Assembly (NCBI GenBank): GCA_021821945.1
Contig: JAJZTF010000002.1
Span: 62,001-126,000, forward strand
Reading direction: 5' to 3'
DNA length: 64,000 bases
Source of the DNA: Pseudomonadota bacterium
GTDB taxonomy: Bacteria > Pseudomonadota > Gammaproteobacteria > Burkholderiales > Gallionellaceae
The notes under the pieces were generated by a model. That model was not told where the DNA came from. It worked only from the letters and a program-made list of their open reading frames with translations, and ran no database searches. The position numbers and the translations under genes are program-made. The first letter of the stretch is position 1, and each line of letters begins with the position of its first letter. Below, piece after piece: positions 1 to 16,878 of the stretch.

Positions 1-1061
1 GCTACGGTTATGCCGTGCAATGCAGGCACATCGAAATCATAGAGGCAGCGCATCCCGTGCCCGACGAGGCGGGGCTCATTGCAAGCCAGCTCATGCTGGA
101 AATGGTGTCCGACCTCACCGAAGACGATCTCGTGCTGTGCCTGATTTCGGGAGGAGGCTCATCCCTGCTCGCGCTGCCGCTGGACGGAATTGCGCTCGAG
201 GAAAAGCAGCAGATCAACAGGCAGCTTTTGCGAAGCGGCGCCTCGATCTCGGAGATCAACTGCGTGCGCCGCCATCTTTCCGCGATCAAGGGCGGGAGGC
301 TTGCCAGGGCCTGCCATCCCGCAAGCGTCGTGAACCTCATCATCTCCGATGTGCCGGGCGACGATCCGGTGGACATCGCATCCGGCCCCACCGTTCCCGA
401 TCCCACCACATGCCGGGATGCGCTTGCCATACTGGAGCGCTATGCGATCGAAGTGCCGGATCACGTGCAGGAGCTGCTCGCAAGCGGCAGGGGGGAGTCG
501 GTGAAGCCAGGAGATGCGAGGCTGCCGGCAATCGAGACGCATTTGATCGCAACACCCCAGATGGCGCTGGAAGCCGCCGCAGAAAAGGCCCGTAGCCTGG
601 GGGTTCCATGCTATATCCTGGGCGATGCGATAGAGGGCGAGGCGCGCGATGTCGCCAGGGTGATGGGGGGCATCGCGCTTCAGGTGAAGAAAAGGGGCCA
701 GCCGTTCGAGCCTCCCTGCGTGCTGCTCTCGGGTGGCGAGACGACCGTGACGGTCAGGGGCGACGGACGGGGAGGGCGCAATGTCGAGTTTCTGCTTGCG
801 CTGGCATTGACGCTGCGCGGGGAGCCCGGAATACATGCGCTGGCAGGCGACACCGATGGCGTGGACGGCAGCGAGGAGGTCGCGGGCGCCTACGTTGCGC
901 CAGACACGCTTTCCCGCGCCCTCGAACTTGGCATGTCAGCTGTTGACAGCCTCGCTAGAAACGATGGGCACGGTTTTTTCGGGAGGCTGGGCGATGCGGT
1001 CGTGACCGGCCCCACGCTTACCAACGTCAACGACTTTCGGGCGATTTTCATAGAGGGGTGA
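1..1061 (+). CDS. Glycerate 2-kinase (MOFRL/GckA-TtuD family), 5' end cut by window edge
   Basis: The reading frame is already open at base 3, so the N-terminus lies outside the window; about 352 residues remain of a family usually 410-430 long. Visible family marks are the SGGGSS loop, the GRGGRN motif in the C-terminal MOFRL domain, and the closing DAVVTGPTLTNVNDFR stretch. The family phosphorylates D-glycerate, usually to 2-phosphoglycerate, in the cytoplasm. It converges on lutC, with the two 3' ends overlapping by 14 bases. With the GarR-like and hydroxyacid dehydrogenases at 15-16.9 kb it would complete a glycerate route into glycolysis. The family is clear; membership in the pathway is inferred from position. 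Confidence 0.9.
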   Translation, partial: YGYAVQCRHIEIIEAAHPVPDEAGLIASQLMLEMVSDLTEDDLVLCLISGGGSSLLALPLDGIALEEKQQINRQLLRSGASISEINCVRRHLSAIKGGRLARACHPASVVNLIISDVPGDDPVDIASGPTVPDPTTCRDALAILERYAIEVPDHVQELLASGRGESVKPGDARLPAIETHLIATPQMALEAAAEKARSLGVPCYILGDAIEGEARDVARVMGGIALQVKKRGQPFEPPCVLLSGGETTVTVRGDGRGGRNVEFLLALALTLRGEPGIHALAGDTDGVDGSEEVAGAYVAPDTLSRALELGMSAVDSLARNDGHGFFGRLGDAVVTGPTLTNVNDFRAIFIEG

Positions 1062-1674
1062 GCACCAGCAGCACGCGATACGGGCCGTGTGCGCCCAGCG
1101 TCACCGTCTGTTCTATGTCCGCCGTGCGGGAGGGCCCGGAGATGAAATTCACCGTCCTCGGAGGTGCTCCGAATTCGCGACGCAACAGATCCCACGCGTC
1201 TTCCATGGTCGCCACGATGCGACGAGGATCGACGATCGCCACATGGGTCTCGGGAAGCAGGCTGACCGAGGCGGGCGTCTTTTCCCCGCCCAGAAGCAGG
1301 AGCGTTCCCGTTTCGGCGATCGCGCAGAATGCGCCGGTGATTCCAACCATGTCCTCATTTCCCGCAGGTCTGGCCTCGATTTCCAGCCCCGAATTTCGCC
1401 ATGGAAGATGGGCGAGGGCAGGCCAGCACACGCCCTTCATCGGAAGCGCCCTTTGCTTGAGATATTCCGCGATCAGTCCTGGAACAAGGCCTAATTGATC
1501 CGCCTCGATCAGGTCGCTCGAGAGCTTTGCAGCGCGTTCCGCAAAGCGCTTCTTCAGGTCGTCGAAGGCCAGAGGCTCCGGCCCGCGCGGGTGAGTTTCG
1601 AGATGATGCCTCAAGGCGGCCTCGTCAGGCCTGGCCTTCGATATCCTGGCCAGTATCTTTTCCCGCGCGTTCAT
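1048..1674 (-). CDS. lutC: LutC-type lactate utilization protein
   Basis: This 208-residue DUF162/LUD-domain protein is the third gene of a lutABC operon. Family marks are the AETGTLLL segment, the THVAIVDPRRIV stretch and the SGPSRTADIEQT region near the C-terminus. In Bacillus and Shewanella the LutABC (LldEFG) complex oxidises L-lactate to pyruvate; LutC carries no iron-sulfur motif. The ATG at 1674 overlaps the lutB stop by 4 bases, which fixes the start and implies translational coupling. A longer in-frame reading upstream lies inside lutB and is rejected. Whether lactate or another 2-hydroxyacid is the substrate cannot be read from the sequence. Confidence 0.9.
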   Translation of the reverse strand: MNAREKILARISKARPDEAALRHHLETHPRGPEPLAFDDLKKRFAERAAKLSSDLIEADQLGLVPGLIAEYLKQRALPMKGVCWPALAHLPWRNSGLEIEARPAGNEDMVGITGAFCAIAETGTLLLLGGEKTPASVSLLPETHVAIVDPRRIVATMEDAWDLLRREFGAPPRTVNFISGPSRTADIEQTVTLGAHGPYRVLLVLTPL

Positions 1675-3071
1675 GATCTTTCCTTGTAGAGTTCGCGGAA
1701 GGTCTTTCCTTCTGGCGCCGGAAAATCGCGGCCATCGGTCCAGCCGGATGCGCCGGGAAGCCTGTGAAGCAGCCCTTTGCTGCCGCCCATGAGATTCATT
1801 GCGCGGACCGCAATCTTCGTTGCAAGCGCATAGGCCCTGGGATGCAGCGCAAGCCATGACCATGCCTTCAGCAGCGCGGTTTCCCTTTGCGGCCGGATGC
1901 CGAGCGTGAGCTGCTTTTCGCGCAGTTTCCTCAGCAGGTCGGGCAGCGGAATCTTGACAGGACAGACGACGGCGCAGGCGCCGCAAAGGGTGGAGGCATT
2001 GGGGAGATCGGGCGCCTTTTCGATTCCGTCGAGCAGCGGCGTGAGTATCGACCCCATGGGGCCGGGATAGACCCATCCATAGGCATGCCCGCCTATGTTC
2101 TGATAGACGGGGCAGTGGTTCATGCATGCGCCGCAGCGTATGCAGCGCAGCATCTCCTGCATCGGCGTGCCCAAGAGGCTGCTTCTTCCGTTGTCCAGAA
2201 GCACGATGTGAAAGTGCTCAGGCCCTTCCGGGTCGCCTTCTCCCCTTTTGCCGGTCAGCAGCGAGACATAGTTGGTGATCGACTGCCCTGTGGCCGAACG
2301 CGGGAGCAGGCGCAGCAGGGTGGACAAGTCTTCCAGCGTGGGCACGACCTTCTCTATCCCGGTGATCGCGACATGCACGCGCGGCAGCGTGGTCACGAGC
2401 CTTCCGTTTCCTTCGTTGGTGACGATGAGCGCCGAACCGGTCTCGGCGATCAGGAAGTTCGCGCCCGAGATGCCCATGTCCGCATTCAGGAAGGCGGGAC
2501 GCAGCACCTCGCGCGCTTCGCGGCATAGCTCTGCGATGCCCGTCTTGCGCGGCAATCCGTGCACCTTTTCGAAGAGATCCGAGATCTCCTCCTTGTTCTT
2601 GTGGACGACCGGGGCGACGATGTGCGAGGGCGCCTCGTGAGCCTTTTGCAATATGTATTCGCCGAGATCGGTTTCCACGACCTCAACGCCCGCCTTTTCC
2701 AGTGCCTCGTTGAGCCCGCATTCCTCGCTGACCATGGACTTGGATTTGGCTGCGGTCTTGACATTATGAAGGGCTGCGATTTCTGCAACTATCCGGTTCG
2801 CATCCTCGACGGTCTCGGCCCAGTGCACGACTGCGCCGCGGCTTGTCGCCCGTTCTTCGAATTCCAGGAGCCAGTGCCCGAGGTTGTTGAGGACGCGGTC
2901 GCGGATTTGCGCCGCCGCATCGCGCGTTTCCTGAAGATCGTGTATCTCGCTGATCACGGCCGAGCGGCCCTCGACGAAGCGCGACTGCAATCGCGACAGC
3001 GCCTGCTGCAGTCTCTCGTCTGCAAGCTTGACCGTGACCTGCCGCTTGAAGTCAAAGGATGCGTTACGCAT
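1671..3071 (-). CDS. lutB: LutB-type iron-sulfur lactate utilization protein
   Basis: This 466-residue protein has an N-terminal LUD domain (roughly residues 60-290, with an IAETGSALIVTNEGN segment) followed by a two-cluster ferredoxin-like domain. Cys310, 313, 316 and 320 form CxxCxxCxxxC, and a second set follows from Cys363 (CGACAVVCP). The family is the electron-transferring subunit of the LutABC 2-hydroxyacid oxidation system. Its ATG overlaps the lutA stop by one base (TGATG) and its own stop overlaps lutC, so the three genes are tightly coupled. Length and motif set are normal for LutB. Confidence 0.93.
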   Translation of the reverse strand: MRNASFDFKRQVTVKLADERLQQALSRLQSRFVEGRSAVISEIHDLQETRDAAAQIRDRVLNNLGHWLLEFEERATSRGAVVHWAETVEDANRIVAEIAALHNVKTAAKSKSMVSEECGLNEALEKAGVEVVETDLGEYILQKAHEAPSHIVAPVVHKNKEEISDLFEKVHGLPRKTGIAELCREAREVLRPAFLNADMGISGANFLIAETGSALIVTNEGNGRLVTTLPRVHVAITGIEKVVPTLEDLSTLLRLLPRSATGQSITNYVSLLTGKRGEGDPEGPEHFHIVLLDNGRSSLLGTPMQEMLRCIRCGACMNHCPVYQNIGGHAYGWVYPGPMGSILTPLLDGIEKAPDLPNASTLCGACAVVCPVKIPLPDLLRKLREKQLTLGIRPQRETALLKAWSWLALHPRAYALATKIAVRAMNLMGGSKGLLHRLPGASGWTDGRDFPAPEGKTFRELYKERS

Positions 3072-3799
3072 CAGTCTTCCTCTCCTGCCAGGATTTCCGC
3101 GATGTGCAGCACCCTGGTGTCATGGTCTCCATTGCGTCTCAGCCTGCCTTCGATGTTGAGCAGGCAGCCCAGATCTCCGCCTGCGATGGCGCCTGCATGG
3201 GTTTCTGTTATGTGCCTGCATTTGTTGTCCGACATGCGCGTTGAAAGCTCGCCATACTTCACCGAGAAGGTTCCGCCGAAGCCGCAGCATGTGGTCGATT
3301 CGACCATCTCCTTAAGGACGACGCCAGGCATTCTTGCAAGAAGAGCGCGCGGCTGTTTGTATACGTCGAGCTCGCGCAGGCCCGAGCAGGAGTCGTGGTA
3401 GGTAAGGCGCCCCCTGAATGTGCCGGGCATCTTTTCGAGCCTGACTATCCTGTGCAGGAAGTCCGTGAGCTCGAATGTGCGCTCTGCAATATTCAGGAAT
3501 CTGTCGAGCAGTTCGGGCTCGTCTTCGAAGAGAGCAGGGTAGTGGACGCGTATCATGCCGGCGCAGGATCCGGAAGGAATGACGATGTAATCGAAGCTCT
3601 CGAATTCGGAGAGGAATTTCAGCGCGAGTTCCTTTGCCGTTTTGCTGTCGCCCGAATTGTATCCGGGCTGGCCGCAGCAGGTCTGGCTTTCCGGCACGAA
3701 TACTACGCATCCTGCGGCCTTGAGCAGCCGCAGCGTCGCAAAGCCTATCTTCGGACGCATGGAGTCGACGAGGCAGGTGACGAATAGTCCGATGCGCAT
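3071..3799 (-). CDS. lutA: LutA-type lactate utilization protein (CCG domains)
   Basis: This 242-residue protein has two cysteine-rich CCG domains, with CCG at residues 41-43 and 171-173 and additional Cys at 79 and 138. These are the hallmark of LutA/LldE and of heterodisulfide reductase B-type subunits, where such motifs bind an iron-sulfur centre. It is the first of the three lut genes. It starts 13 bases after the GlcG-like gene behind a purine-rich GGAAAA site, in the same operon as the IclR regulator. The family role is oxidation of L-lactate to pyruvate with LutB and LutC; the real substrate here may differ. Confidence 0.93.
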   Translation of the reverse strand: MRIGLFVTCLVDSMRPKIGFATLRLLKAAGCVVFVPESQTCCGQPGYNSGDSKTAKELALKFLSEFESFDYIVIPSGSCAGMIRVHYPALFEDEPELLDRFLNIAERTFELTDFLHRIVRLEKMPGTFRGRLTYHDSCSGLRELDVYKQPRALLARMPGVVLKEMVESTTCCGFGGTFSVKYGELSTRMSDNKCRHITETHAGAIAGGDLGCLLNIEGRLRRNGDHDTRVLHIAEILAGEED

Positions 3800-3812: not shown

Positions 3813-4229
3813 TCAGGGTTGCCGGCCGATGAATTCGCCTATGCCAAAGCGCGCAATCTGCGCGTCCTCGTTGGATTTTACGCCGGATACGCCGACTGCG
3901 CCCACGCATTCGCCGTCGACCATGATGGGCTCGCCGCCTTCCAGCATGGTGAGCCCTCCCGGTACGGAAAGGAACGCGTTGCGGTTGGCGGCCACGACCT
4001 CTTCATATGCCTTGGAAGGCCTGCGACCGAGCGCGGCGGTGCGCGCCTTGCCTGCCGCGATGTCCATGCTGGTCAAAGGTGCGCTGTCCAGCCTCTGCAG
4101 CCAGACAAGATGCCCTCCGTCGTCGACGATCGCGATGCTGACCGCCCAGTTGTGACGCAGCGCCTCCGCCTCGCAGGATGCCGCGATCAGCCTAGCATCG
4201 GCCAGCGTGAGATACTTTTTCGATTTCAT
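3813..4229 (-). CDS. GlcG/HbpS-like (DUF336) protein
   Basis: This 138-residue protein belongs to the GlcG/HbpS family, shown by the GGHLVWLQRLD stretch, the KARTAALGRRPS segment and the glycine-rich GGEPIMVDGECVGAVGVSG end. Members sit in glycolate, propanediol and aromatic catabolic operons and some bind haem; no enzymatic role is settled. The ATG at 4229 overlaps the IclR stop by 4 bases and is preferred over an upstream in-frame reading that lies inside the IclR gene. It is co-transcribed with iclR and lutABC, which suggests a small-hydroxyacid or redox accessory role. Confidence 0.85.
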   Translation of the reverse strand: MKSKKYLTLADARLIAASCEAEALRHNWAVSIAIVDDGGHLVWLQRLDSAPLTSMDIAAGKARTAALGRRPSKAYEEVVAANRNAFLSVPGGLTMLEGGEPIMVDGECVGAVGVSGVKSNEDAQIARFGIGEFIGRQP

Positions 4230-5014
4230 GTGTTCCCTCTTTGATGATGGTTCGAAAATGACGCATGATAACCGAGCTGTCTTGAAATCTGTTCGCTGGC
4301 CTGCATCACGAGCTCGGTCCATTCGTCCCGGCGGCGCTCTATCGGGGCGGAAACGGAAAGCCCCGCGATCACCTGTCCGCTCGCATCGCGTATCAGCGCG
4401 CCTATGCACCCCACGCCCAGCTCCGCTTCCTGGTCATCATAGGCATAGCCGCGCTTTGCGCATGCGATGCAGTCCCTGATCAGCGATGCGACGGTCTTGT
4501 GCGTGTTGGCCGTGTACTGGGGAAGCCTGCTGCGCTTTGCATAGCCGCGGCAGGCCTCCTCGCCCAATTCGCCCAGCATCAGCTTGCCCACGGCGGTCAC
4601 ATGAAGCGGCGCCCGGCTGCCGATCACCTGTTCCACCCTGATCATGCGCTTTGCCAGGCTGCGCTCTATGTACACGACCTCGTCGCCTTCGCGCACGGTC
4701 AGATTGACCGTCTCGTCCAGCTGGTCGCGCAGCATCTCCATCACCGGCAGCGCGACCTTCCTGAAATCCGTGCTTGCCCCGACGCGGTTGCCCAGCTGCA
4801 TGAGCTTCACGCCCAGCCGGTAGTTGCCGCGGCTCGTGCGCTCGACGAAGCCCTCCTCGGCAAGCGAGGCGAGTATGCGGAATGCGGTGGACGGATGCAA
4901 TCCGGTTTCCGCCGAAAGCACCTTGAGGCTCGCATCCTCCTTCTGGGCTGCGATGGCGTCCAGCAGTCTTGCGAGCCTTTCTATCACCTGTATCGAGTTG
5001 GGTTCTTTTTTCAT
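4226..5014 (-). CDS. IclR-family transcriptional regulator
   Basis: This 262-residue protein has an N-terminal winged helix-turn-helix (about residues 8-70, including LSAETGLHPSTAFRILASL) and a C-terminal IclR effector domain (about 80-255, with LHVTAVGKLMLGEL and GVGCIGALIRDASG). IclR proteins repress or activate catabolic operons in response to a small organic acid. It is the first gene of the minus-strand operon with GlcG and LutABC and faces the TPP-enzyme operon across 121 bases, so it probably controls both. The effector is unknown; a pathway intermediate such as glyoxylate, hydroxypyruvate or the imported substrate is likely. Confidence 0.93.
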   Translation of the reverse strand: MKKEPNSIQVIERLARLLDAIAAQKEDASLKVLSAETGLHPSTAFRILASLAEEGFVERTSRGNYRLGVKLMQLGNRVGASTDFRKVALPVMEMLRDQLDETVNLTVREGDEVVYIERSLAKRMIRVEQVIGSRAPLHVTAVGKLMLGELGEEACRGYAKRSRLPQYTANTHKTVASLIRDCIACAKRGYAYDDQEAELGVGCIGALIRDASGQVIAGLSVSAPIERRRDEWTELVMQASEQISRQLGYHASFSNHHQRGNT

Positions 5015-5135: not shown

Positions 5136-7328
5136 ATGACGACGATCGCGGCCCCCAATTTTTGTGAAGGCATCCAGTATTTCGGGGATGCCTGGGAGGG
5201 TTTCTCCGTGCATGCAGCGCGTGCGGCAATCGCCGAGGGAGAGGCTGCAATCAGGGATCCGAATTCCGCCGATGCGGTCTATCAGACGCTGTTGATGGCC
5301 GATGCGCTGCGCTATGTCACGCTGCAGGTGTGCGGTTCCAAGGGGTCCGGCCATCCCGGCGGCTTTGCCAGCAGTGCGGAGGCTTATGCATCGCTTGTGA
5401 TGCTGGGACACACCAATATCGTCACCGAAGTGGGCCACCATGCTCCCGGTTTCTACAGTGCGATGTTCCTCGACACCTCATTGGAAGAGATGGGCATCAG
5501 GACCATGAGCGACATGATGGCCAGATTCCGCGAGAAGCATGGTCTCCTCGGTCACCTTTCGGGCGCGATCCCCGGGCTGCTTGCCCCCGCAGGCCCCTTG
5601 GGGCAGGGGCAGCACTTCGCGATGGCGGGCGCCCTCCTGCATCCGGGCAAGCTGTTCCCGGTGACCATAGGCGACGGCGGCATGGGCGAGCCCTATGTGC
5701 TGAATTCGATGATGCACTTCAATACCGCATACCCCAAGGTGACCAATTTCCTGCCGACCCTGATATGGAACGGTTACAGCCAGGAGCATCATTCCATGGT
5801 GTCGAGGTTCACCAACGAGGAGATGATCGCCTACTGGAAGGGTCATGGCTTCAAGGAGGTCGTGCTGGTCGACGCGAAGGATTTCGATGACAGCAACCAG
5901 GCTGGCGCCTATGTCGACAGCTCGCGCTTTTCGCTGAAGCAGCGCCTGGCATTTGCATCCGCCGTGCTTTCGGGTGTGGACAGGGCCGCCAAATCGGCGC
6001 TGGGCGGCACGCTGACCGCATTCATCATCAAACAGCTGAAGGGCACGGGCGTGCATACGGTGGGCGCCAAATCGCACAATCTTTATCCTGCCGACAGCCT
6101 CGACAAGCCGCACATGATAGAAGGGCTGAAGCGCCGCGCGCTGAACCCCGATGCCTGGGCCATCGTGCGCGAGAATTTCGTGCGCGCGGGCGGCGGCCCT
6201 GCCGCAAGGACCGCGGTGACCGAGCATGTCCTCGAGCTCTCCCCTCTCGGGCAGATGCCTTTCAAGGAATATGCAAAGAACGAGAAGGCGGTTCCGGCGA
6301 CCGCGATGGGCGCGCTCGTCGCCTATGTCGGCACTCAGGACAGGCGCTTTGTCGTCACCAATGCGGACGGCAACGAGGCTTCCGCGATGAAGAACATCAA
6401 CGATGCGCTGAAGATCCGCCATCCGACCGTCGATCCGCTTTACAACCAGGAGCCCGAGGGCCAGGTATACGAACCTCTGAACGAGGATGCCTGCGCGGGG
6501 CTTGCGGCCGGTCTCTGCCTCTTCGGTTCCCGTGCGCTCTGGCTTTCCTACGAGAGTTTCGCGATCAACGGATGGCCCATCGTCCAGACCGTGGCCCAGG
6601 CGATGGCGGAGCTGCGCCGCAGGACGCCTTCCATCGTTTCGATGTTCACGGCGGGCGCCTTGGAGCAGGGAAGAAACGGCTGGACGCACCAGCGGCCCGA
6701 GATCGAGAACTATTTCGCCGCGCAGATGCGAAACGGCAACACCTATCCGTTGTTCCCCTGTGATGCGAATGCAATACAGGCTGCATACGAATACGCCACA
6801 AACAGCTTCAACAAGTGCATGGTGATCATCGCATCCAAGAGCCCGTTGCCCGTTTACATGAGCATGGAGGAGGCGAAGCATGCGGTCGAAGAGGGCGCTG
6901 CGACCATATACGAAAGCCGCAGCGGCAGCAAAACGGTGGTGTTCGCGGTGACCGGAGACATGGTGCTGATGCCCGTGTTCGAGGCGAAGGACAGGCTCGA
7001 GGCGGACGGCTACAGGGTGCGCATCGTGTCCGTGGTGAACCCGCGCCGCCTGTATCGCTCGGTCGACATCTCGTGGGATACGGTGGCGGAGCCTGACAAC
7101 AAGTTCATGGACGATGCGCATTTCAATGCGCTGTTCGATGCGGACGTGCTGCTTGCCGTGAGCGGCGGACCGAGCGCGGTTCTCGAGCCTGTGCTTTTGC
7201 GCACGCGTGCGGCAAGGCGTGACACCTTTGCATGGAAACGCGGCGAGACCACGGCAACGCCCGCGGAGATCATGGCATTCAACGGGCTGACCGCTGAGGC
7301 GATGGTGAAGCGCGTGATGGCGGCCTGA
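5136..7328 (+). CDS. Phosphoketolase/transketolase-like thiamine-diphosphate enzyme
   Basis: This 730-residue cytoplasmic enzyme mixes two related families. The N-terminal SGHPGG (71-76) is transketolase-like. The TPP-binding segment GDGGMGEPYVLNSMMHFN (179 on), the following LIWNGYS, and the later NGWTHQRP and FPCDANAIQAA stretches line up with phosphoketolases (LHLNGYK, NGFSHQ, LPPDANTL). Phosphoketolases are near 790 residues and carry a GHWGTTPG motif not seen here. It probably cleaves a ketose or keto-acid phosphate by TPP chemistry; the substrate is unknown. ATG 5136 is chosen for its GAGAGGAG site; an upstream start lacks one. The DUF1537 kinase starts two bases after its stop. Confidence 0.75.
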   Translation: MTTIAAPNFCEGIQYFGDAWEGFSVHAARAAIAEGEAAIRDPNSADAVYQTLLMADALRYVTLQVCGSKGSGHPGGFASSAEAYASLVMLGHTNIVTEVGHHAPGFYSAMFLDTSLEEMGIRTMSDMMARFREKHGLLGHLSGAIPGLLAPAGPLGQGQHFAMAGALLHPGKLFPVTIGDGGMGEPYVLNSMMHFNTAYPKVTNFLPTLIWNGYSQEHHSMVSRFTNEEMIAYWKGHGFKEVVLVDAKDFDDSNQAGAYVDSSRFSLKQRLAFASAVLSGVDRAAKSALGGTLTAFIIKQLKGTGVHTVGAKSHNLYPADSLDKPHMIEGLKRRALNPDAWAIVRENFVRAGGGPAARTAVTEHVLELSPLGQMPFKEYAKNEKAVPATAMGALVAYVGTQDRRFVVTNADGNEASAMKNINDALKIRHPTVDPLYNQEPEGQVYEPLNEDACAGLAAGLCLFGSRALWLSYESFAINGWPIVQTVAQAMAELRRRTPSIVSMFTAGALEQGRNGWTHQRPEIENYFAAQMRNGNTYPLFPCDANAIQAAYEYATNSFNKCMVIIASKSPLPVYMSMEEAKHAVEEGAATIYESRSGSKTVVFAVTGDMVLMPVFEAKDRLEADGYRVRIVSVVNPRRLYRSVDISWDTVAEPDNKFMDDAHFNALFDADVLLAVSGGPSAVLEPVLLRTRAARRDTFAWKRGETTATPAEIMAFNGLTAEAMVKRVMAA

Positions 7329-7330
7329 TC

Positions 7331-8665
7331 ATGCTTGATACCAAGATCATCGTTCTGGACGATGACCCAACCGGGTCGCAGACGGTGCACGGCTGCCTGC
7401 TTCTGACGCGCTGGGACGTCGCAACGCTGAAGGAGGCGATCCTGGATGAGTCACCGCTGTTCTTCGTGCTGACCAATACGCGAGGCATGGCGGCGGGTCC
7501 TGCTGCAGAAATCACGAGAGAAGTGTGCCGCAATGTCAAGCTTGCACTGCTTGAGTTGAAGGCGGAAGGGCGCGAGGTCAATCCCATCCTGGTCAGCCGT
7601 TCCGATTCGACCCTGCGCGGTCACTATCCGGTCGAGACAGACGTGATCGCCGAGGAGCTAGGTCCATTCGATGCGCATTTTCTGGTGCCGGCTTTTTTCG
7701 AGGGCGGCCGCATCACGAAGGACAGCGTGCATTACCTGATGGTGAACGGACGCGAGACCCCCGTGCATGAGACCGAGTTCGCGAAGGACTCGGTGTTCGG
7801 TTACCGGAACAGCTACCTTCCGGATTATGTCGAGGAAAAGACAAAGGGGCGCATCGCGGCCGGCAGCGTCGAGCGTTTCCTGCTTGCCGACGTGAGGGGT
7901 GACAGCCTGAAGCGCCTGATGGACCTGCACGGCAATGCGTGCTGCGTGGTCGATGCGGAGTCGCAGTCCGATCTGGATCATTTTGCGGGTCAGCTTCGGG
8001 AGGCGGCGGCGCAGGGCAAGCGTTTCCTGTTCAGAAGCGCGGCGAGCCTGCTCACCGCACTTTCGGGATTGCCGAAGCAGCCCGTTGCGGCCGAGGACAT
8101 GGCGCAATATGTCAGGAATGCGCGCCCCGGTGCGGTCATCGTGGGTTCCCATGTAAAGAAGACCACGGCGCAGCTTGGGCATCTCTTGAAGATGCCGGGC
8201 ATCTCGCCCATCGAGGTGGATGTCGAGCGGCTGGACGAAATGCGCGAAGCGCTGCTTCGGGAGACGATAGCGGGATGCGAGAAGAGCCATGAGCAGGGTT
8301 TGACGCCCGTGGTGTACACATCGCGGGTCGAGAAGGTCTTTCCTGACCAGGCGGCACGCCTAGCATTCGGCGACAGGGTCTCGGAATTCCTGATGGACGT
8401 GGTGCGCAATCTGCCCCTGACGATAGGCTTTCTGATCAGCAAGGGCGGCATCACCTCCAACGACGTGCTGAGCAAGGGGCTTGCGCTGCGCACATCGCGC
8501 GTGCTGGGCCAGATACTGCCGGGATGTTCGGTGGTGCGCTGTCCCGGGGATCATCCGCGCTACCCCGATCTGCCTGTGGTGATCTTTCCCGGGAACGTGG
8601 GCGACGATCTCGCGCTGGCCTCTGCCTACGCCAGACTGACAGGACTAAAAAACGAAATTAACTGA
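7331..8665 (+). CDS. DUF1537 four-carbon acid-sugar kinase family protein
   Basis: This 444-residue protein opens with the hallmark DDDPTGSQTVHG and has the NTRGM and SRSDSTLRGH segments and a C-terminal ISKGGITSNDV region typical of the DUF1537 kinase family (OtnK, DtnK). Characterised members phosphorylate 3-oxotetronate, D-threonate or 3-oxoisoapionate with ATP. It follows the TPP enzyme with no room for another promoter, so kinase and TPP enzyme very likely act in sequence. No OtnC aldolase, OtnI isomerase, PdxA2 or RLP gene is present, so the usual downstream steps are missing and the TPP enzyme may replace them. Confidence 0.85.
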   Translation: MLDTKIIVLDDDPTGSQTVHGCLLLTRWDVATLKEAILDESPLFFVLTNTRGMAAGPAAEITREVCRNVKLALLELKAEGREVNPILVSRSDSTLRGHYPVETDVIAEELGPFDAHFLVPAFFEGGRITKDSVHYLMVNGRETPVHETEFAKDSVFGYRNSYLPDYVEEKTKGRIAAGSVERFLLADVRGDSLKRLMDLHGNACCVVDAESQSDLDHFAGQLREAAAQGKRFLFRSAASLLTALSGLPKQPVAAEDMAQYVRNARPGAVIVGSHVKKTTAQLGHLLKMPGISPIEVDVERLDEMREALLRETIAGCEKSHEQGLTPVVYTSRVEKVFPDQAARLAFGDRVSEFLMDVVRNLPLTIGFLISKGGITSNDVLSKGLALRTSRVLGQILPGCSVVRCPGDHPRYPDLPVVIFPGNVGDDLALASAYARLTGLKNEIN

Positions 8666-8741: not shown

Positions 8742-9947
8742 ATGAGCCTTAAAATCAAATCCATTGTTGCCGTGTTGGCCTTGGCAACTTCCTGTACCGC
8801 ATTTGCAGCCGATGTGATCAAGATAGGCGTATCCGGTCCTTACACGGGCGGCTCAAGCCCCATGGGCGTATCCATGCGCGACGGCGTCAGGCTCGCCGCA
8901 GAGGAAATCAACGCAAAAGGCGGCATACTGGGGCACAAGATCCAGCTGGTCGAGCGCGATGATCAGGCTGACAACCAGCGCGGCGTGCAGGTTGCCCAGG
9001 AGCTCATCAACAAGGAAAGAGTCGTGGCCACGCTGGGCTACATCAACACCGGTGTTGCGCTGGCATCGCAGCGTTTCTACGAAGAGGCGAAGATCCCCGT
9101 GATCAACAACGTCGCAACCGGCACCGCAATCACCCATCAGTTCCTCCCTCCTGAATATCCCGACAACTACATCTTCCGCACTTCCGCAAACGACGTGATC
9201 CAGTCTGCGATGATCGTCCGCGAGGCGGTCGAGGGCAGGAAGTTCACCAAGCTTGCGATCCTTGCCGATTCCACCAACTACGGCCAGCTGGGCCGCGAGG
9301 ATCTGGAAAAGGCGCTGGCAGCGAGGAACCTCAAGCCCGTCGCTGAAGAGAAGTTCAACATCAAGGACGTGGACATGACCGCGCAGCTCCTGAGGGCGAA
9401 GGGTGCGGGTGCCCAGGCCATCCTGACCTATGGCATCGGGCCCGAGCTGGCCCAGATTGCAAACGGCATGGAAAAGCTGGGATGGAAGGTTCCGATGATA
9501 GGAAGCTGGACGCTTTCCATGGGCAACTTCATCGACAATGCGGGCAAGAACGGCGAGGGTGCGCGCATGCCGCAGACCTTCATCCAGGAGCCCAACACGC
9601 CCAAGCGCAAGGCCTTCATCGAGGCTTACCAGAAGGCATACAAGATCGAGCGCATCCCGTCCCCGGTGTCCGCAGCTCAGGGCTATGACTCCATGTATCT
9701 GCTCGCTGCGGCTATCAAGCAGGCAGCCAGCACCGATGGCGTGAAGGTGCGCCAGGCACTGGAAAACCTGAATGCGCCGGTCGAAGGCGTGATCACGACC
9801 TATGTCCATCCATACACGCATGATGATCACGAGGCGATCACCATGAACATGGTGGTGATGGGCGAGGTCAAGAACGGCCGCGTGGTTTATGCCTACGATT
9901 CCGACAAGGGTCAGGCAGTGCGTGAGAAGGCCAAGGCCAAGAAGTAA
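8742..9947 (+). CDS. ABC transporter substrate-binding protein, branched-chain amino-acid (LivK) type
   Basis: This 401-residue periplasmic protein has a signal peptide cleaved near the AFA-AD at residues 20-24, followed by the type-I periplasmic binding fold (IKIGVSGPYTGGSSPMG, then AAEEINAKGGILGHKIQLV). A GGGAGAAAT ribosome site precedes ATG 8742. The gene heads the importer block of the operon. Family members bind leucine, urea, amides, aromatic acids or small organic acids, so the fold does not give the ligand; its neighbours suggest a hydroxy-acid or sugar acid. Confidence 0.9.
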   Translation: MSLKIKSIVAVLALATSCTAFAADVIKIGVSGPYTGGSSPMGVSMRDGVRLAAEEINAKGGILGHKIQLVERDDQADNQRGVQVAQELINKERVVATLGYINTGVALASQRFYEEAKIPVINNVATGTAITHQFLPPEYPDNYIFRTSANDVIQSAMIVREAVEGRKFTKLAILADSTNYGQLGREDLEKALAARNLKPVAEEKFNIKDVDMTAQLLRAKGAGAQAILTYGIGPELAQIANGMEKLGWKVPMIGSWTLSMGNFIDNAGKNGEGARMPQTFIQEPNTPKRKAFIEAYQKAYKIERIPSPVSAAQGYDSMYLLAAAIKQAASTDGVKVRQALENLNAPVEGVITTYVHPYTHDDHEAITMNMVVMGEVKNGRVVYAYDSDKGQAVREKAKAKK

Positions 9948-9992: not shown

Positions 9993-10865
9993 ATGGATGT
10001 ATTCATTCAACTCGTCGTCAGCGGCATCGCACTGGGGATGATCTACGCATTGATCGCCTTCGGCTATCAGCTGACTTTTGCCACATCCGGAACGCTGAAC
10101 TTCGGCCAGGGAGAAGCGCTGATGTTGGGCGCCCTGGTCGGGCTCACGCTGGTCGGGCACATGAGCTACTGGCTGATGCTGCCGCTGGTGCTTGTGTTCG
10201 GCGCCTTGCAGGGTGTGGTGGTGGAACGCGTGGGTGTCCGGCCCGCGATCAAGACGAAATCCGAATTCGGCTGGATCATGACGACCATTTCACTTGCGAT
10301 CATCTTCAAGAATGTCGCCGAGAACATATGGGGCCATGACGACATCCCCTTTCCCTCTCCATTGCCCACGGAGCCGCTGCAATTCTTCGGCATCCGCGTT
10401 TTGCCGATGGAGATCATGGTCGTGGTGGGCGCGCTGGCAATCATGCTGGCCGTCGAGATCTTCAACAGGAAATCCATCTATGGCAAGGCGGTTGTGGCCA
10501 CCTCGAACGATCGCGATGCCGCGGGACTGATGGGCATCAATACCAGCATGGTGATCACCTTCTCCTATGCGTTGAGCTCCATGACCGCCGCCTTTGCAGG
10601 CGTGCTGGTCGCGCCGCTCACGCTCACCGGGGCAACGATGGGCGTTTCCCTGGGATTGAAGGCCTTTGCAGTCGCGATCATAGGCGGACTCAACAGCGGC
10701 CTCGGGGTGATCGTGGGAGGGCTGATCTTGGGCATCGCAGAAACCACGACAGGGTATTACCTGTCGACGGGATACAAGGATGTTCCCGGACTGGTCCTGC
10801 TGCTTCTGGTGTTGTCGATCAAGCCTGCCGGAATCTTTGGAAAATCCGTCATCAAGAAGGTCTAG
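9993..10865 (+). CDS. ABC transporter permease, LivH type
   Basis: This 290-residue protein is strongly hydrophobic, with about eight membrane segments, and begins with IQLVVSGIALGMIYALIAFG, typical of LivH permeases. The GEALMLGALV and SGLGVIVGGLILGIAE stretches are characteristic. It forms one half of the inner-membrane channel with the LivM part of the next gene. It lies 45 bases after the binding-protein gene, with a GGAG element upstream. Nothing unusual is seen in its length. Confidence 0.92.
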   Translation: MDVFIQLVVSGIALGMIYALIAFGYQLTFATSGTLNFGQGEALMLGALVGLTLVGHMSYWLMLPLVLVFGALQGVVVERVGVRPAIKTKSEFGWIMTTISLAIIFKNVAENIWGHDDIPFPSPLPTEPLQFFGIRVLPMEIMVVVGALAIMLAVEIFNRKSIYGKAVVATSNDRDAAGLMGINTSMVITFSYALSSMTAAFAGVLVAPLTLTGATMGVSLGLKAFAVAIIGGLNSGLGVIVGGLILGIAETTTGYYLSTGYKDVPGLVLLLLVLSIKPAGIFGKSVIKKV

Positions 10866-10866
10866 C

Positions 10867-12804
10867 ATGAGTTTGAACAAGAAGATAGCAGCCGTTCTGG
10901 CCATAGCGGTTGCAGCAATGCTGCCGACTTTCTGGCCCAATCCGTATTACATACATCTGATGGTGGTCATAGGCATCTATGCGATCCTGCTGCTGGGCCT
11001 CGACATCGTCGTGGGCTACGTCGGCGAAGTCTCGCTGGGCCATGCGGCGCTCTTCGGTGTGGGTTCCTACGCCGCAGGCGTGCTGCATGCCAAGCTTGCG
11101 GTGCCATTCCTGCTCGCGGTTCCGGCAAGCATCGCAATCACGGGCCTGTTTGGCGCGCTCCTGGCATTGCCAGCCTTGCGGGTGAGCGGCCCTTACCTTG
11201 CGATGGTGACGCTGGCGTTCGGCACCATCATCCAGATCCTGATCAACGAGATGGATTTCCTGACCAACGGACCCCTGGGTCTTTCCGTGCGCAAGCCGGT
11301 CTGGTTCGGCCATCACATCAGCGGCACCGACTATTACTACGTCGTGCTGGTGGCGCTCATCGCGACGCTGTTCGTGATCCAGCGCATCCTGAAGTCCCAT
11401 CTCGGGCGCGCATTCGAGGCGTTGCACGACAGCCCCATCGCGTCGGATTGCATGGGGGTCAGCGTTTACGGATACAAGGTCTATGCCTTCGTGCTGAGCG
11501 CGGCGATCGCGGGTCTTGCGGGCGCCCTGTTCACCTATTCCGAAGAATACATCTCGCCCAACACCTATAACTTCGAGCTGACCATTCTTTTCCTGCTCGC
11601 GGTCATCATGGGCGGACGTAAGACCAGGACCGGCCCCGTGCTGGGCGCGATCATCGTCGTGATGCTGCCCAACGTGCTCTCCGACATCGACCTGTTCCGC
11701 GAGATCTCGATCGGCATTGCGGTGATCACTGCGGTCTATGCGGTCTATGCATTCGTCACGAGGCAGAGAACTGCAAGGCAGCTTGCGCTGCCGCTTGCCG
11801 CGACCATTGCACTGGCGGTCTCGGGCTTCATGATGGAGAACATCACCGATCACAGGCTGACGATATTCGGCGCGATGATCCTGTTCGTCGTCTACTACCT
11901 TCCGAACGGCATCATGGGTTTCCTGCGCGGCATCATCGTGAAGTTCAGGCCACAGTGGATACACCGCCACACCCTGATAAGCGAGCATGGCGACATGCAG
12001 CATGTCTGGGCCGTTCCTGACCATCCGGTGACGGCCAACGGTTTCCTGCTGGAGGCGCGGAACATCGTGATGCAGTTCGGCGGGCTGAAGGCGCTGAGCG
12101 AGGTGAATCTGCAGATATCCAAGGGCACGGTGCACGGTCTGATCGGACCCAACGGATCGGGCAAGAGCACGACGATGAACGTGCTGACCGGCATCTACAA
12201 GCCGACCTCGGGCGAGATAGACTTCAACGGCAAGCTCATCACCGGGGCTACCCCGTCCTCGATCGCGGGGGAGGGCATTGCGCGCACGTTCCAGAACGTT
12301 CAGCTTTTCGGCGAGATGACCGCGATAGAAAACGTGCTGGTGGGCCTGCATCACACCTATCGCCACAACATCCTCGACGTGGTTTTCCATACGCCGCGCT
12401 GCAAGCGGGAAAAGCATGCCGCGGAAGTGCGGGCGGCGAGCCTGCTCCGTTTCGTGGGGCTTGCAGACCTTGCAAACGAGGAGGCGCGCAACCTGCCCTA
12501 TGGCAAGCAGCGCCTGCTCGAGATCGCGCGGGCGCTGGCCTTGAACCCGAGCCTGCTGCTGCTCGACGAGCCGGCCGCAGGACTGACTGCGCCCGACATC
12601 AAGGAGCTGATCGCGATGATCGAAAAGATACGCAGCCATGGCATCACCGTGATCCTGATCGAGCACCACATGGACGTTGTGATGAGCATCTGCGACAAGG
12701 TCACGGTGCTGGATTTCGGACAGAAGATCGCGGAAGGCACGCCGGCCGAAATACAGAGCAACGAGAAGGTGATCGGCGCGTATCTCGGCGGAAGCGCCGC
12801 ATAA
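10867..12804 (+). CDS. Fused ABC transporter permease-ATPase, LivM-LivG type
   Basis: This single 645-residue frame joins a LivM-type permease (about residues 1-350, multiple membrane segments) to a LivG-type ATPase (about 395-645). The ATPase half has Walker A GPNGSGKST near residue 427, the Liv signature LPYGKQRLLEIARAL near 543, Walker B LLLLDEPAAGL near 563, and the EHHMDVVM switch. Such LivM-LivG fusions occur in some proteobacteria. ATG 10867 follows the LivH stop by one base; a longer upstream frame overlaps livH and is rejected. With LivH and LivF it forms a complete importer. Confidence 0.92.
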   Translation: MSLNKKIAAVLAIAVAAMLPTFWPNPYYIHLMVVIGIYAILLLGLDIVVGYVGEVSLGHAALFGVGSYAAGVLHAKLAVPFLLAVPASIAITGLFGALLALPALRVSGPYLAMVTLAFGTIIQILINEMDFLTNGPLGLSVRKPVWFGHHISGTDYYYVVLVALIATLFVIQRILKSHLGRAFEALHDSPIASDCMGVSVYGYKVYAFVLSAAIAGLAGALFTYSEEYISPNTYNFELTILFLLAVIMGGRKTRTGPVLGAIIVVMLPNVLSDIDLFREISIGIAVITAVYAVYAFVTRQRTARQLALPLAATIALAVSGFMMENITDHRLTIFGAMILFVVYYLPNGIMGFLRGIIVKFRPQWIHRHTLISEHGDMQHVWAVPDHPVTANGFLLEARNIVMQFGGLKALSEVNLQISKGTVHGLIGPNGSGKSTTMNVLTGIYKPTSGEIDFNGKLITGATPSSIAGEGIARTFQNVQLFGEMTAIENVLVGLHHTYRHNILDVVFHTPRCKREKHAAEVRAASLLRFVGLADLANEEARNLPYGKQRLLEIARALALNPSLLLLDEPAAGLTAPDIKELIAMIEKIRSHGITVILIEHHMDVVMSICDKVTVLDFGQKIAEGTPAEIQSNEKVIGAYLGGSAA

Positions 12805-12813
12805 GGAGTCAGG

Positions 12814-13536
12814 ATGTTACAGATACAGAATCTACATGCCGGTTACGGCAAGGTCGAGGTGCTGCACGACATCTCGTTCTCGGTCCCCAAGGGTCAGGTT
12901 GTATCGCTGATCGGGTCCAACGGCGCTGGAAAGACCACGACGATGCGCGCGATATCGGGGATGCTGAAACCTTCCAGCGGCTGCATCACGTTAAACGGGC
13001 GCGCGATCGCAGGATTGCCCTCGAACAGGATAGCCCAGGCGGGGCTTGCGCATTCGCCTGAAGGAAGGCGGGTTTTCTCGACGCTTTCTGTCACCGACAA
13101 TCTGCTTCTGGGCGCATTCCCAAGGCTCACCTTCGGGCGCGAAAAGGGAGATGTGACTGGGGATCTCGCGCGCGTCTTCGAGCTTTTCCCGAGGCTCAAG
13201 GAGCGCGAGCACCAGCTTGCCGGCACGCTCTCCGGGGGCGAACAGCAGATGCTCGCCATGGGGCGCGCGCTGATGCTGAACCCCGATGTGTTGCTGCTCG
13301 ACGAGCCATCGATGGGCCTTGCGCCGCTGCTCGTCAAGGAGGTGTTCCGCATCATAGGCGAGCTCAAGAAGCGGGGCATCACCATGCTGCTCGTCGAACA
13401 GTTCGCCGCCGCTGCGCTCGAGGTTGCCGATTACGCCTATGTGCTCGAAAACGGCCGCATTTCGGTGCACGGTCCTGCAGAACAGTTGCGCAACGATCCC
13501 GCGGTGAAGGCGGCATATCTGGGCGCTGCGCATTAG
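12814..13536 (+). CDS. ABC transporter ATP-binding protein, LivF type
   Basis: This 240-residue ATPase has Walker A GSNGAGKTTT, signature LSGGEQQMLAMGRAL, Walker B LLLDEPSMGLAP and a switch at LLVEQF, the exact pattern of LivF proteins. It pairs with the ATPase half of the preceding LivM-LivG fusion to drive the importer. The start lies nine bases after the previous stop behind an AAGGAGTC ribosome site, and the aldehyde dehydrogenase follows ten bases later, so the operon continues. Confidence 0.94.
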   Translation: MLQIQNLHAGYGKVEVLHDISFSVPKGQVVSLIGSNGAGKTTTMRAISGMLKPSSGCITLNGRAIAGLPSNRIAQAGLAHSPEGRRVFSTLSVTDNLLLGAFPRLTFGREKGDVTGDLARVFELFPRLKEREHQLAGTLSGGEQQMLAMGRALMLNPDVLLLDEPSMGLAPLLVKEVFRIIGELKKRGITMLLVEQFAAAALEVADYAYVLENGRISVHGPAEQLRNDPAVKAAYLGAAH

Positions 13537-13546
13537 GAGGGAAGGA

Positions 13547-15043
<1,497 letters not shown>

Positions 15044-15053
15044 GGAGGAAGTC

Positions 15054-15926
15054 ATGAAAGTCGGTTTCATCGGGCCTGGCATCATGGGTGCGCCCATGGC
15101 GAAGAATCTCATCAAGGCGGGGCATGCCGTGAACGTCTATGCCAGACGGGCGGATGCCGCGAAGCCTCTTGTCGATGCGGGAGCCTCGTTCTGCGCATCA
15201 CCGGCCGAGGCAGCCTCGAATGCCGAAGTCGTCTTCACCATCGTATCCGACACGCCCGATGTCGAGGAAGTTGTCTTCGGCGACAAGGGCATCGTCGAAG
15301 GCGCCAAGCCCGGCACGGTGATCGTCGACATGAGCACGATCTCGCCGACTTCGACCAAGCAGTTCGCAGAGCGCCTTGAAAGACTCGGTCTTGAGATGAT
15401 CGATGCACCGGTGTCCGGCGGGGAGGCCGGTGCCATCAACGGCACGCTTTCCATCATGGCGGGCGGCAGGAAGGAAATCTTCGAGCGCGTGAAACCGCTT
15501 TTCGAATGCATGGGAAAGAACATCGTGCATGTGGGCGGAAACGGGGCGGGTCAGGTCGCAAAGGCATGCAACCAGATCGTGGTGGCGGTGACCATAGAGG
15601 CGGTTGCGGAGGCGCTGACCTTTGCGCGCCGCAACGGCGCCGATCCCGAGAAGGTGCGCGAGGCGCTGATGGGCGGGTTTGCCGGAAGCAGGATCATGGA
15701 AGTGCACGGCAAGCGCATGCTGGACAACGATTTCAGGCCGGGCTTCAAGGTCGGCCTGCATCAGAAGGACATGCGCATCGTGATGGAGACCGCGCACCAG
15801 CTGGGTGTCGCCCTTCCCGCGGCCGCGCTGGTCGCGCAGCATCTGAATGCGCTGATGGGCATGCATGATGCGGAGCTCGACTCTTCGGCCATCGTCAAGG
15901 TGATAGAACGCATGTCCGGCGATTGA
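15054..15926 (+). CDS. 2-hydroxy-3-oxopropionate (tartronate semialdehyde) reductase-like, beta-hydroxyacid dehydrogenase family
   Basis: This 290-residue protein has an N-terminal NAD(P) site GPGIMG (7-12), the substrate motif DAPVSGGEAGAING (118-131) and the catalytic Lys170 in GQVAKACNQ. It closely follows E. coli GarR in length and pattern, so reduction of tartronate semialdehyde to D-glycerate is the first choice. The same family holds 3-hydroxyisobutyrate dehydrogenase and L-threonate dehydrogenase LtnD, and the neighbouring DUF1537 kinase makes the latter a real alternative. ATG 15054 follows a GAGGAGG site; a longer upstream frame lies within the aldehyde dehydrogenase gene. Confidence 0.87.
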   Translation: MKVGFIGPGIMGAPMAKNLIKAGHAVNVYARRADAAKPLVDAGASFCASPAEAASNAEVVFTIVSDTPDVEEVVFGDKGIVEGAKPGTVIVDMSTISPTSTKQFAERLERLGLEMIDAPVSGGEAGAINGTLSIMAGGRKEIFERVKPLFECMGKNIVHVGGNGAGQVAKACNQIVVAVTIEAVAEALTFARRNGADPEKVREALMGGFAGSRIMEVHGKRMLDNDFRPGFKVGLHQKDMRIVMETAHQLGVALPAAALVAQHLNALMGMHDAELDSSAIVKVIERMSGD

Positions 15927-15930
15927 TGCC

Positions 15931-16878
15931 ATGGAACGCATCGTATTCCTCGATTCGGACACGCTGATTGCCGATCTGCATCTTCCGAGATTCGCCCATC
16001 AGTGGGAATCCCATCCCGCAACATCCCCGCATGAAGTTGCATCCCGTCTGGCCGATGCGACCATTGCGATCACCAACAAGGTTGCGCTGCGCCGCGAAAC
16101 GCTCGAGCGCCTGCCCAAACTTAAAATGATCGCGGTCGCCGCGACAGGCACCGATCATGTGGACCTAGCATTCTGCAAGGAGCGCGGCATCGTCGTCTCC
16201 AACATCCGCAATTATTCCGTGCACACCGTTCCCGAGCATGTTTTCATGATGCTGCTTGCGCTGCGCCGCAACCTCTTTGCGTTTCATTCGGACATCAGGG
16301 GAGGGGAGTGGCAGAAGGCCAGGCAGTTCTGCCTGTTCACCCATCCCGTTCAGGATCTTTACGGCAGCACGCTCGGCATATTCGGCCATGGCGCGATCGG
16401 CAAGGCAGTGGCCGGGATCGCCCGTGCCTTCGGCATGCAGGTGCTGATTGCCGAGCACAAGGGGGTTTCGGATGTTCGGCCGGGATACACGGAATTTAAT
16501 GAGGTGCTTGAAAGAAGCGATGCGATCACGCTGCATCTACCCCTTAACGATGCCACCCGGAACATGATAGGCGAGGCTGAATTTCAACGCATGAAGCAGA
16601 GCGTCCTTCTGATCAATACCGCAAGGGGCGGACTGGTCGACGAGAAGGCGCTCCATCACGCGCTGACATCAGGGCGCATCGCGGGTGCGGGATTCGATGT
16701 GCTGAGCAAGGAGCCGCCTCTAGAGGGTAATCCCCTGCTGGAAATTGATCTGCCCAATTTCATACTGACGCCCCACATCGCCTGGTCAGGCAGGTCGGCG
16801 ATGCAGACCTTGGCCGACCAGCTGATAGACAACATAGAGTCTTTCGTTGCGGGCAATCCCGTGAACCGGGTGGCTTGA
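15931..16878 (+). CDS. D-2-hydroxyacid dehydrogenase (glycerate/hydroxypyruvate reductase type)
   Basis: This 315-residue NAD-dependent dehydrogenase has the GHGAIG nucleotide site, the catalytic triad Arg232 (NTARGG), Glu261 (SKEPP) and His282 (TPHIAW), and a central NYSVHTVPEHVF stretch seen in HprA glycerate dehydrogenases. It would interconvert hydroxypyruvate and D-glycerate. It starts four bases after the garR-like stop and appears to end the catabolic operon. With the GarR-like enzyme and glycerate kinase it supports a glycerate end point. Confidence 0.88.
   Translation: MERIVFLDSDTLIADLHLPRFAHQWESHPATSPHEVASRLADATIAITNKVALRRETLERLPKLKMIAVAATGTDHVDLAFCKERGIVVSNIRNYSVHTVPEHVFMMLLALRRNLFAFHSDIRGGEWQKARQFCLFTHPVQDLYGSTLGIFGHGAIGKAVAGIARAFGMQVLIAEHKGVSDVRPGYTEFNEVLERSDAITLHLPLNDATRNMIGEAEFQRMKQSVLLINTARGGLVDEKALHHALTSGRIAGAGFDVLSKEPPLEGNPLLEIDLPNFILTPHIAWSGRSAMQTLADQLIDNIESFVAGNPVNRVA

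Follow-up and report, generated by a model that had tools for sequence, protein, structure and literature searches.

A phosphoketolase/transketolase-like enzyme paired with a DUF1537 kinase in Rubisco-bearing bacteria: a candidate glyoxylate-removing module

The stretch of DNA analyzed here (the window) comprises 64,000 nt of a Gallionellaceae genome (GenBank assembly GCA_021821945.1, contig JAJZTF010000002.1, positions 62,001 to 126,000) and carries two adjacent genes, one for a thiamine diphosphate (ThDP)-dependent enzyme and one for a DUF1537 kinase. The existence of this enzyme–kinase module and its link to glycolate genes are well supported by the comparisons described below. The two genes are as follows:

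5136..7328, (+) strand: ThDP-dependent enzyme of a phosphoketolase/transketolase-like family, 730 amino acids (aa); proposed glyoxylate-accepting ketol transferase
7331..8665, (+) strand: DUF1537 kinase (SBD_N + NBD_C), 444 aa (PF07005, E-value 8e-57; PF17042, E-value 3e-37); proposed 3-oxotetronate 4-kinase

The 730-aa protein is encoded by a genuine, complete, and strongly conserved open reading frame (ORF), which starts with ATG and has AGAGAGGAG just upstream. A chance ORF can be dismissed, since full-length relatives with 69–96% identity occur in many genomes. Specifically, such relatives were found in 9 of the 37 genomes of the genus (own genome counted) and in 33 of the 369 genomes of a class-wide sample, across 24 families, while a phylum-wide sample yielded relatives in 3 of 398 genomes (own genome again counted). 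In one genome (G096), the enzyme gene is split between two contigs, and its pieces are 69% and 62% identical. Among GTDB species genomes, at least 517 loci encode a relative at an E-value of 1e-3 or better; the loci counted below are the window plus the best 80 of these (81 in total). Members among the best 80 whose records are not titled as metagenome-assembled genomes (MAGs) belong to Mariprofundus (M. ferrooxydans PV-1), Acidithiobacillus (three), Candidatus Nitrotoga (two), and a betaproteobacterium (one). MAG titles name, among others, Gallionella, Sideroxydans, Thiobacillus, Sulfuriferula, Thiogranum, and Halothiobacillus, with many bins having no genus name. Among the matches listed, the nearest genus-named relative is from Candidatus Gallionella acididurans (89% identity). 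One member (L117; 72% identity) lies on a 4-kb contig of a MAG titled Campylobacterota, which is possibly mis-binned. Plasmid records gave 191 matches, none with ≥60% identity to the ThDP enzyme; the 60 of these that were listed are ~21–25% identical, and the annotated ones are named phosphoketolase family protein.

The kinase gene begins 2 bp past the stop codon of the enzyme gene. Neighbor counts by tblastn (E-value limit of 1e-12) revealed the kinase in 79 of the 81 loci. In 78 of these 79, it is on the same strand as the enzyme gene and no more than 400 bp downstream; the remaining locus has it at 500 bp. Both kinase-free loci run out no more than 56 bp from the enzyme gene. Next, we compared 40 of the 43 known carriers of the enzyme with 40 Rubisco-positive non-carriers, a non-random set chosen mainly by completeness; carriers G022, G025, and G093 were excluded for low completeness, and four others that are <90% complete or fragmentary were kept. 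All 40 carriers had a kinase homologue, versus none of the 40 Rubisco-bearing non-carriers. G417 has kept both the enzyme gene and the kinase gene even though ~750 kb separate them, which argues that the link between them is not only one of operon inheritance.

With the curated D-threonate kinase model, the kinase of the window scored 60.6 bits (cut-off, 450), which marks it as a distant subfamily. As described in one study, bacterial DUF1537 kinases of L-threonate pathways phosphorylate 3-oxo- or 2-oxo-tetronate en route to dihydroxyacetone phosphate (DHAP), and the decarboxylase of these pathways is of the Aldolase_II or F_bP_aldolase type (PMC12540250). The OtnK/2-OtnK systems with their OtnC decarboxylases resemble the module in the kinase family and in the proposed endpoint, DHAP, but their C4 acid derives from threonate, whereas that of the module would derive from ketol transfer to glyoxylate. 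Candidatus Nitrotoga sp. M5 has a tandem second kinase with DDGPAG replacing DDDPTG (L114, 13999–15357), maybe a decaying duplicate, and one kinase frame contains a single in-frame TAG (G369:C11:2125-3444). The stand-alone kinase gene of G417 stands tail-to-tail, across a 6-bp gap, with a gene for an HAD-IA hydrolase (L183, 7471–8250; TIGR01509 over cut-off), presumably CbbY-like.

The ThDP enzymes form a separate family that is nearest to phosphoketolase in both sequence and fold and has a transketolase-type SGHPGG/GPLGQG N-terminus. The Pfam XFP domains score over their cut-offs but weakly (PF03894, 48.2 bits; PF09364, 39.3 bits; PF09363, 33.8 bits), and the curated NCBIfam models are reached neither for phosphoketolase (best 119.4 bits versus a cut-off of 962) nor for transketolase (42.4 bits versus a cut-off of 575). 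By hhalign, the family matched phosphoketolase with a probability of 99.5 (E-value 6e-23) and transketolase, more weakly, with a probability of 92.6 (E-value 4.5e-7). A predicted model of the enzyme (mean predicted local distance difference test score [pLDDT] 82.3, predicted template modeling score 0.84) had its best fold match, like its best profile match, in the phosphoketolase XFP of Bifidobacterium breve/longum (3ahc, 3ai7). Specifically, superposition on 3ahc gave a Z-score of 40.2 and a root mean square deviation (rmsd) of 3.9 over 656 residues, with 19% identity in the structural alignment; the best transketolase gave a Z-score of 33.4 and an rmsd of 4.0 over 588 residues. Loops 133–155, 308–313, and 508–517, among others, have a pLDDT of <50, so the model was used at the level of the fold.

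In a midpoint-rooted tree, the family, the phosphoketolases, and the transketolases fell into three separate groups, with a support of 90/88 for the family and 100/100 for each of the others. The tree holds 16 of 32 family members, 12 of 18 phosphoketolase loci, and 9 of 12 transketolase loci; the phosphoketolase loci outside it (L012, L018, L022, L023, L024, and L027) are in the wrong frame, have an odd start, or are partial or near-copies, and the transketolase loci outside it (L150, L151, and L155) are in the wrong frame or truncated. In this tree of unassayed enzymes, the family is separate from the 12 phosphoketolases of the sampled genomes, which answers only in part whether it falls within an assayed phosphoketolase clade. 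An initial annotation of the gene, made from the sequence, had called the product an intermediate between the two families; its standing in a group of its own beside both is borne out by tree, profile, and fold, but the fold is nearer to phosphoketolase than to transketolase.

The same annotation had listed the motifs SGHPGG, GDGGMGEP, LIWNGYS, NGWTHQRP, and FPCDANAIQ, all of which we found in the 730-aa protein, and had noted that the phosphoketolase motif GHWGTTPG was not visible and that the chain was ~60 residues short. A motif search agreed on the former point, and in length the chain falls 59 residues short of the host's ordinary phosphoketolase (L021; 789 aa from the first Met). That phosphoketolase does contain GHWGTTPG and is encoded ~20 kb left of the window (G000:C23:42380-43354); a second match of the ordinary phosphoketolase type also occurs in six of the nine carriers in the genus. 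With transketolase, the family has in common the N-terminal motifs SGHPGG, GHH, and GPLGQG and the overall fold, but its C-terminal half is phosphoketolase-like instead, the Z-score is lower, and its hosts also contain an ordinary transketolase. AptAB and SqwGH are two-chain transketolase relatives with specialized acceptors that occur in catabolic clusters. Unlike these split enzymes, the ThDP enzyme is a single 730-aa chain with an XFP-type C-terminal half.

We then examined the active site with the residues listed for the Bifidobacterium phosphoketolase in PMC10547157 and with printed alignments, numbering the 3ahc chain with an offset of 20. In the alignment, phosphoketolase residues H97, H142, G155, and E479 correspond to H101, H140, G153, and E450 of the ThDP enzyme, and Y501, Q546, N549, and H553 correspond to Y472, Q511, N514, and H518. 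H320 corresponds to H314, provided that the aligned His-Gln pair is 320-321, and Ser440 likely corresponds to S416, a placement that is not certain. The equivalent of K605, which we take to be an active-site residue of phosphoketolase, is K568. The initial annotation had also judged the catalytic His to be missing; it is most likely present as H73 of SGHPGG, which aligns with the GHPG His of transketolase in the profile alignment, a residue that we assume to be equivalent to phosphoketolase H64. Two listed phosphoketolase residues are altered, namely, Q321 to N315 and H548 to R513.

Every active-site motif tested, including those around N315 and R513, is identical in all 53 aligned members, as are SGHPGG and the GHPG and GPLGQG ThDP/active-site motifs. 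In comparison, all 12 phosphoketolases compared have GHWG[TS][TS]PG as well as HQVP and RQD.NGF, the phosphoketolase versions of the N315 and R513 motifs. The GEDGPTHQ-type loop of transketolases, taken from the transketolase alignment consensus, gives way to EQGRNGWTHQRPE in all 53 members, and the R513 position is occupied by Glu in transketolases. The invariant Arg513 occurs in neither of the families compared and would match a carboxylate acceptor such as glyoxylate. As for the distinct reaction suggested by the initial annotation, it is likely from gene context, the stronger argument being the kinase partner, the glycolate dehydrogenase neighbors, and a near-restriction to Rubisco-bearing hosts. 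The grounds given for it fail: the His is most likely present, the fold leans toward phosphoketolase, and the catalytic set by itself is compatible with acetyl-phosphate formation.

One alternative is that the protein is simply a shortened phosphoketolase, with acetyl phosphate as its product from xylulose 5-phosphate or fructose 6-phosphate; malate synthase would then join the acetyl group to glyoxylate, and the kinase would serve a separate role. In favor of this, the closest fold and profile are those of phosphoketolase, the equivalents of E479, Y501, Q546, N549, H553, and K605 are conserved, and malate synthase G is encoded near the module in 5 of the 81 loci. However, malate synthase is missing from 27 of the 40 carriers tested, an ordinary phosphoketolase-type match coexists in most of the genus carriers, Q321 and H548 are replaced throughout the family, and the constant DUF1537 kinase would be left unexplained. 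We regard this explanation as unlikely. GHWGTTPG, the two replaced residues, the shorter chain, and the kinase partner all distinguish the family from phosphoketolase XFP.

In the class-wide sample, the hosts of the enzyme are, with one exception, Rubisco-bearing: a Rubisco large chain was matched in 32 of the 33 carriers versus 155 of the 336 non-carriers (Fisher P = 2e-9, not corrected for relatedness), by a Pfam model that can match Rubisco-like proteins too. The sole Rubisco-negative carrier, G093, is an 86% complete bin. Rubisco hosts and the ThDP-binding motifs common to both proteins might suggest an extra Calvin-cycle transketolase, but a regular one is present besides: the transketolase N-domain was matched at an E-value of 1e-138 or better in 39 of the 40 carriers (partial in G378) and as a contig-edge fragment in the other (G268), which argues that the ThDP enzyme is not the household transketolase. 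Moreover, the transketolase profile match is the weaker one, and no cbb gene was recognized among the recurrent neighbors, although no search aimed at cbb genes was made. An extra transketolase is, accordingly, very improbable.

Across the loci, glycolate dehydrogenase subunits were the commonest neighbors found after the kinase and the regulator described below. Among the 47 loci with at least 6 kb of sequence downstream, 29 have a strong match to GlcD, 28 to GlcE, and 28 to GlcF; related subunits can cross-match in such counts (for GlcF, 32 of 47 loci matched, 28 of 47 as strong matches). Strong GlcD matches occur in 38 of all 81 loci and, in 30 of these 38, lie on the same strand and no more than 600 bp from the kinase gene. 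A representative GlcD scored 569.5 with TIGR00387 (cut-off, 567.9) and 889 with a second GlcD model (cut-off, 897), and with NCBIfam models the representative GlcE scored 489.5 (cut-off, 284) and GlcF 637.5 (cut-off, 333). In five loci (L076, L084, L085, L087, and L131), a gene for an F_bP_aldolase (class II aldolase-type) protein directly follows the kinase gene; that of L076 belongs to PF01116, and the other four are 60–74% identical to it. A sixth aldolase match, in L083, is only distantly related and is encoded upstream of the module. In L084, L085, and L131, glcD comes next after the aldolase gene, an order (kinase, aldolase, glcD) that would complete the route proposed below. An oxalate/formate antiporter gene lies downstream of the kinase gene in L064 (6308–7501; TIGR04259 over cut-off) and, from the same cluster, in L121 (13678–15141).

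Gallionellaceae-like loci, including the window, have LutABC-like subunits, GlcG, and a LIV-type transporter as neighbors. The other features of the window around the module are as follows:

15..1061, (+) strand: glycerate 2-kinase, MOFRL type (PF13660 from profile position 80, PF05161); truncated at its 5′ end by the left edge of the window
1048..1674, (−) strand: LutC-like LUD-domain subunit (PF02589, E-value 2e-27)
1671..3071, (−) strand: LutB-like iron-sulfur subunit (TIGR00273, 482.9 over a cut-off of 444.8)
3071..3799, (−) strand: LutA-like cysteine-rich subunit of a 2-hydroxyacid dehydrogenase (PF02754; LdhH C-terminal match below cut-off)
3813..4229, (−) strand: GlcG/HbpS-like protein (PF03928, E-value 1e-34)
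4226..5014, (−) strand: IclR-family regulator (PF01614, PF09339), divergent from the ThDP enzyme gene
8742..9947, (+) strand: branched-chain-type ABC transporter substrate-binding protein (subfamily match below cut-off)
9993..10865, (+) strand: LivH-type permease (PF02653)
10867..12804, (+) strand: LivM-LivG fused permease/ATPase (PF02653 + PF00005)
12814..13536, (+) strand: LivF-type ATPase (PF00005)
13547..15043, (+) strand: MMSDH-type aldehyde dehydrogenase (TIGR01722, 740 over a cut-off of 448.5)
15054..15926, (+) strand: dehydrogenase of the tartronate-semialdehyde reductase type, GarR (TIGR01505, 374.5 over a cut-off of 340.75)
15931..16878, (+) strand: 2-hydroxyacid dehydrogenase (PF02826, PF00389), which we take to be of the hydroxypyruvate/glycerate type

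The IclR-family regulator was found in 72 loci, and in 71 of them its gene is divergent from the enzyme gene and no more than 600 bp away. The GlcG/HbpS-like protein and the substrate-binding protein each also occur in 9 of the 80 named loci; we assume the former to be a usual companion of glycolate operons, and the ligand of the latter is perhaps glycolate or a related acid. In the own genome, genes for a tartronate-semialdehyde reductase and a glycerate kinase stand near the module, yet no glyoxylate carboligase was found over cut-off.

Some of these neighbors would also fit a ketol transferase with another acceptor or donor (e.g., hydroxypyruvate or glycolaldehyde) that still feeds the kinase. 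Genes for a tartronate-semialdehyde reductase, a 2-hydroxyacid dehydrogenase, and a glycerate kinase do lie near the enzyme gene of the window, and the N-terminus with GHPG and GPLGQG is of the transketolase type. Across the set, however, these three genes were found in only 10, 6, and 3 of the 81 loci, respectively, and glycolate dehydrogenase subunits are far commoner neighbors, which makes a different acceptor or donor doubtful. The transporters raise the further idea that the module degrades an external four-carbon acid of the erythronate/threonate type, with the ThDP enzyme cleaving a keto-acid in the reverse direction: DUF1537 kinases serve such pathways, and LIV ABC and TRAP transporters are encoded near the module in 10 of the 81 loci each. 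The dehydrogenase of the window, by contrast, is over cut-off as a tartronate-semialdehyde reductase (a type found in the 10 loci just mentioned for it) and below cut-off as a threonate dehydrogenase, Rubisco is present in 32 of the 33 hosts, and many hosts bear the genus names of chemolithoautotrophs. Degradation of an external acid is, thus, quite unlikely.

Taken together, we lean slightly toward the view that the ThDP enzyme and the DUF1537 kinase form a glyoxylate-removing module of Calvin-cycle chemolithoautotrophs, running by ketol transfer through 3-oxotetronate to DHAP. The family itself, its pairing with the kinase, its glycolate-gene neighbors, and its association with Rubisco are observed. 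The glyoxylate would come from glycolate, chiefly that arising from the Rubisco by-product 2-phosphoglycolate, through a glycolate dehydrogenase (GlcDEF or Lut-type). The ThDP enzyme would then use fructose 6-phosphate or xylulose 5-phosphate as the donor of a two-carbon ketol unit and glyoxylate as the acceptor, with Arg513, at the position of phosphoketolase His548, binding the glyoxylate carboxylate; the products would be 3-oxotetronate and erythrose 4-phosphate or glyceraldehyde 3-phosphate. Such a transfer fits the module, since 3-oxotetronate belongs to the substrate class of the partner kinase. Phosphorylation to 3-oxotetronate 4-phosphate would pull the reversible ketol transfer and make it irreversible. 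In hosts that encode a class II aldolase-type protein, this protein could catalyze decarboxylation to DHAP and CO2; in the others, the step could proceed through another enzyme or spontaneously. The predicted balance is glyoxylate + fructose 6-phosphate + ATP → DHAP + CO2 + erythrose 4-phosphate + ADP.

Several observations weigh against this proposal. The substrates, the products, the role of Arg513, and every chemical step are inferred, and with the phosphoketolase catalytic set largely intact, acetyl-phosphate formation appears possible. Most loci lack a dedicated decarboxylase, and only 1 of the 40 carrier genomes has a close homologue of the aldolase (G323; 58% identity, adjoining the kinase gene). 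The window locus has LutABC and GlcG, and its own glcDEF genes are on another contig (G000:C6, L182). Carriers are a minority of the Rubisco-bearing genomes (32 of 187), and counts between carriers and non-carriers are not corrected for relatedness. The genome-wide link to glcD is modest, with 36 of the 40 carriers versus 25 of the 40 non-carriers passing a bit score threshold chosen afterwards, and the curated glcD cut-off is passed by only 4 of the 80 genomes, two per group. Carriers and non-carriers show no difference in the frequencies of carboligase and malate synthase: glyoxylate carboligase was over cut-off in 0 of 40 versus 2 of 40, and malate synthase was found in 13 of 40 versus 9 of 40. 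A class V aminotransferase occurs in 33 of the 40 carriers, so that most carriers tested possibly have another glyoxylate sink; its best curated match, BhcA, reached 209.7 versus a cut-off of 650, and its substrate is uncertain. Finally, carboligase, malate synthase, and aminotransferase are all lacking in only 5 of the 40 carriers (G267, G300, G305, G340, and G520) but in 12 of the 40 non-carriers.

Carboligase and malate synthase were also considered as markers of complementation or replacement and were rejected, the carriers being like the controls. The class II aldolase was likewise rejected as a general third enzyme, since the remaining matches are to more distant aldolases, which carriers and non-carriers both have. 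The glcDEF genes of the own genome are directly followed by a class V aminotransferase gene (G000:C6:68341-69513), whose product may use glyoxylate. In a Cupriavidus study, malate synthase is reported at 0% in Rubisco-bearing Acidithiobacillales (nine) and Halothiobacillales (six), and other phosphoglycolate routes are left to future work (PMC7486775).

The known routes of phosphoglycolate salvage (the glycerate pathway, the malate cycle, and the C2 cycle) perform a similar task, using the glyoxylate that results from Rubisco oxygenation. The proposed module would differ from them in relying on sugar phosphate and ATP chemistry with no ammonia release, and no carboligase was found in the 40 carriers. 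In the literature searched, which covered open-licence PMC papers and so makes an absence weak, we found no paper that joins the ThDP enzyme, the DUF1537 kinase, and glycolate or glyoxylate. We see about an even chance that the module represents a natural salvage pathway of iron-, sulfur-, and nitrite-oxidizing autotrophs that returns glyoxylate to the Calvin cycle and dispenses with carboligase, transamination, and malate synthase.

To the question of how non-photosynthetic Calvin-cycle bacteria recycle the by-product of Rubisco, the module offers a concrete two-gene answer that can be tested in, e.g., Mariprofundus ferrooxydans PV-1 or Acidithiobacillus. If the proposal is true, glyoxylate would be, to our knowledge, a new acceptor for the transketolase superfamily, and the module would constitute a new natural route of phosphoglycolate salvage and a candidate part for photorespiration bypasses.

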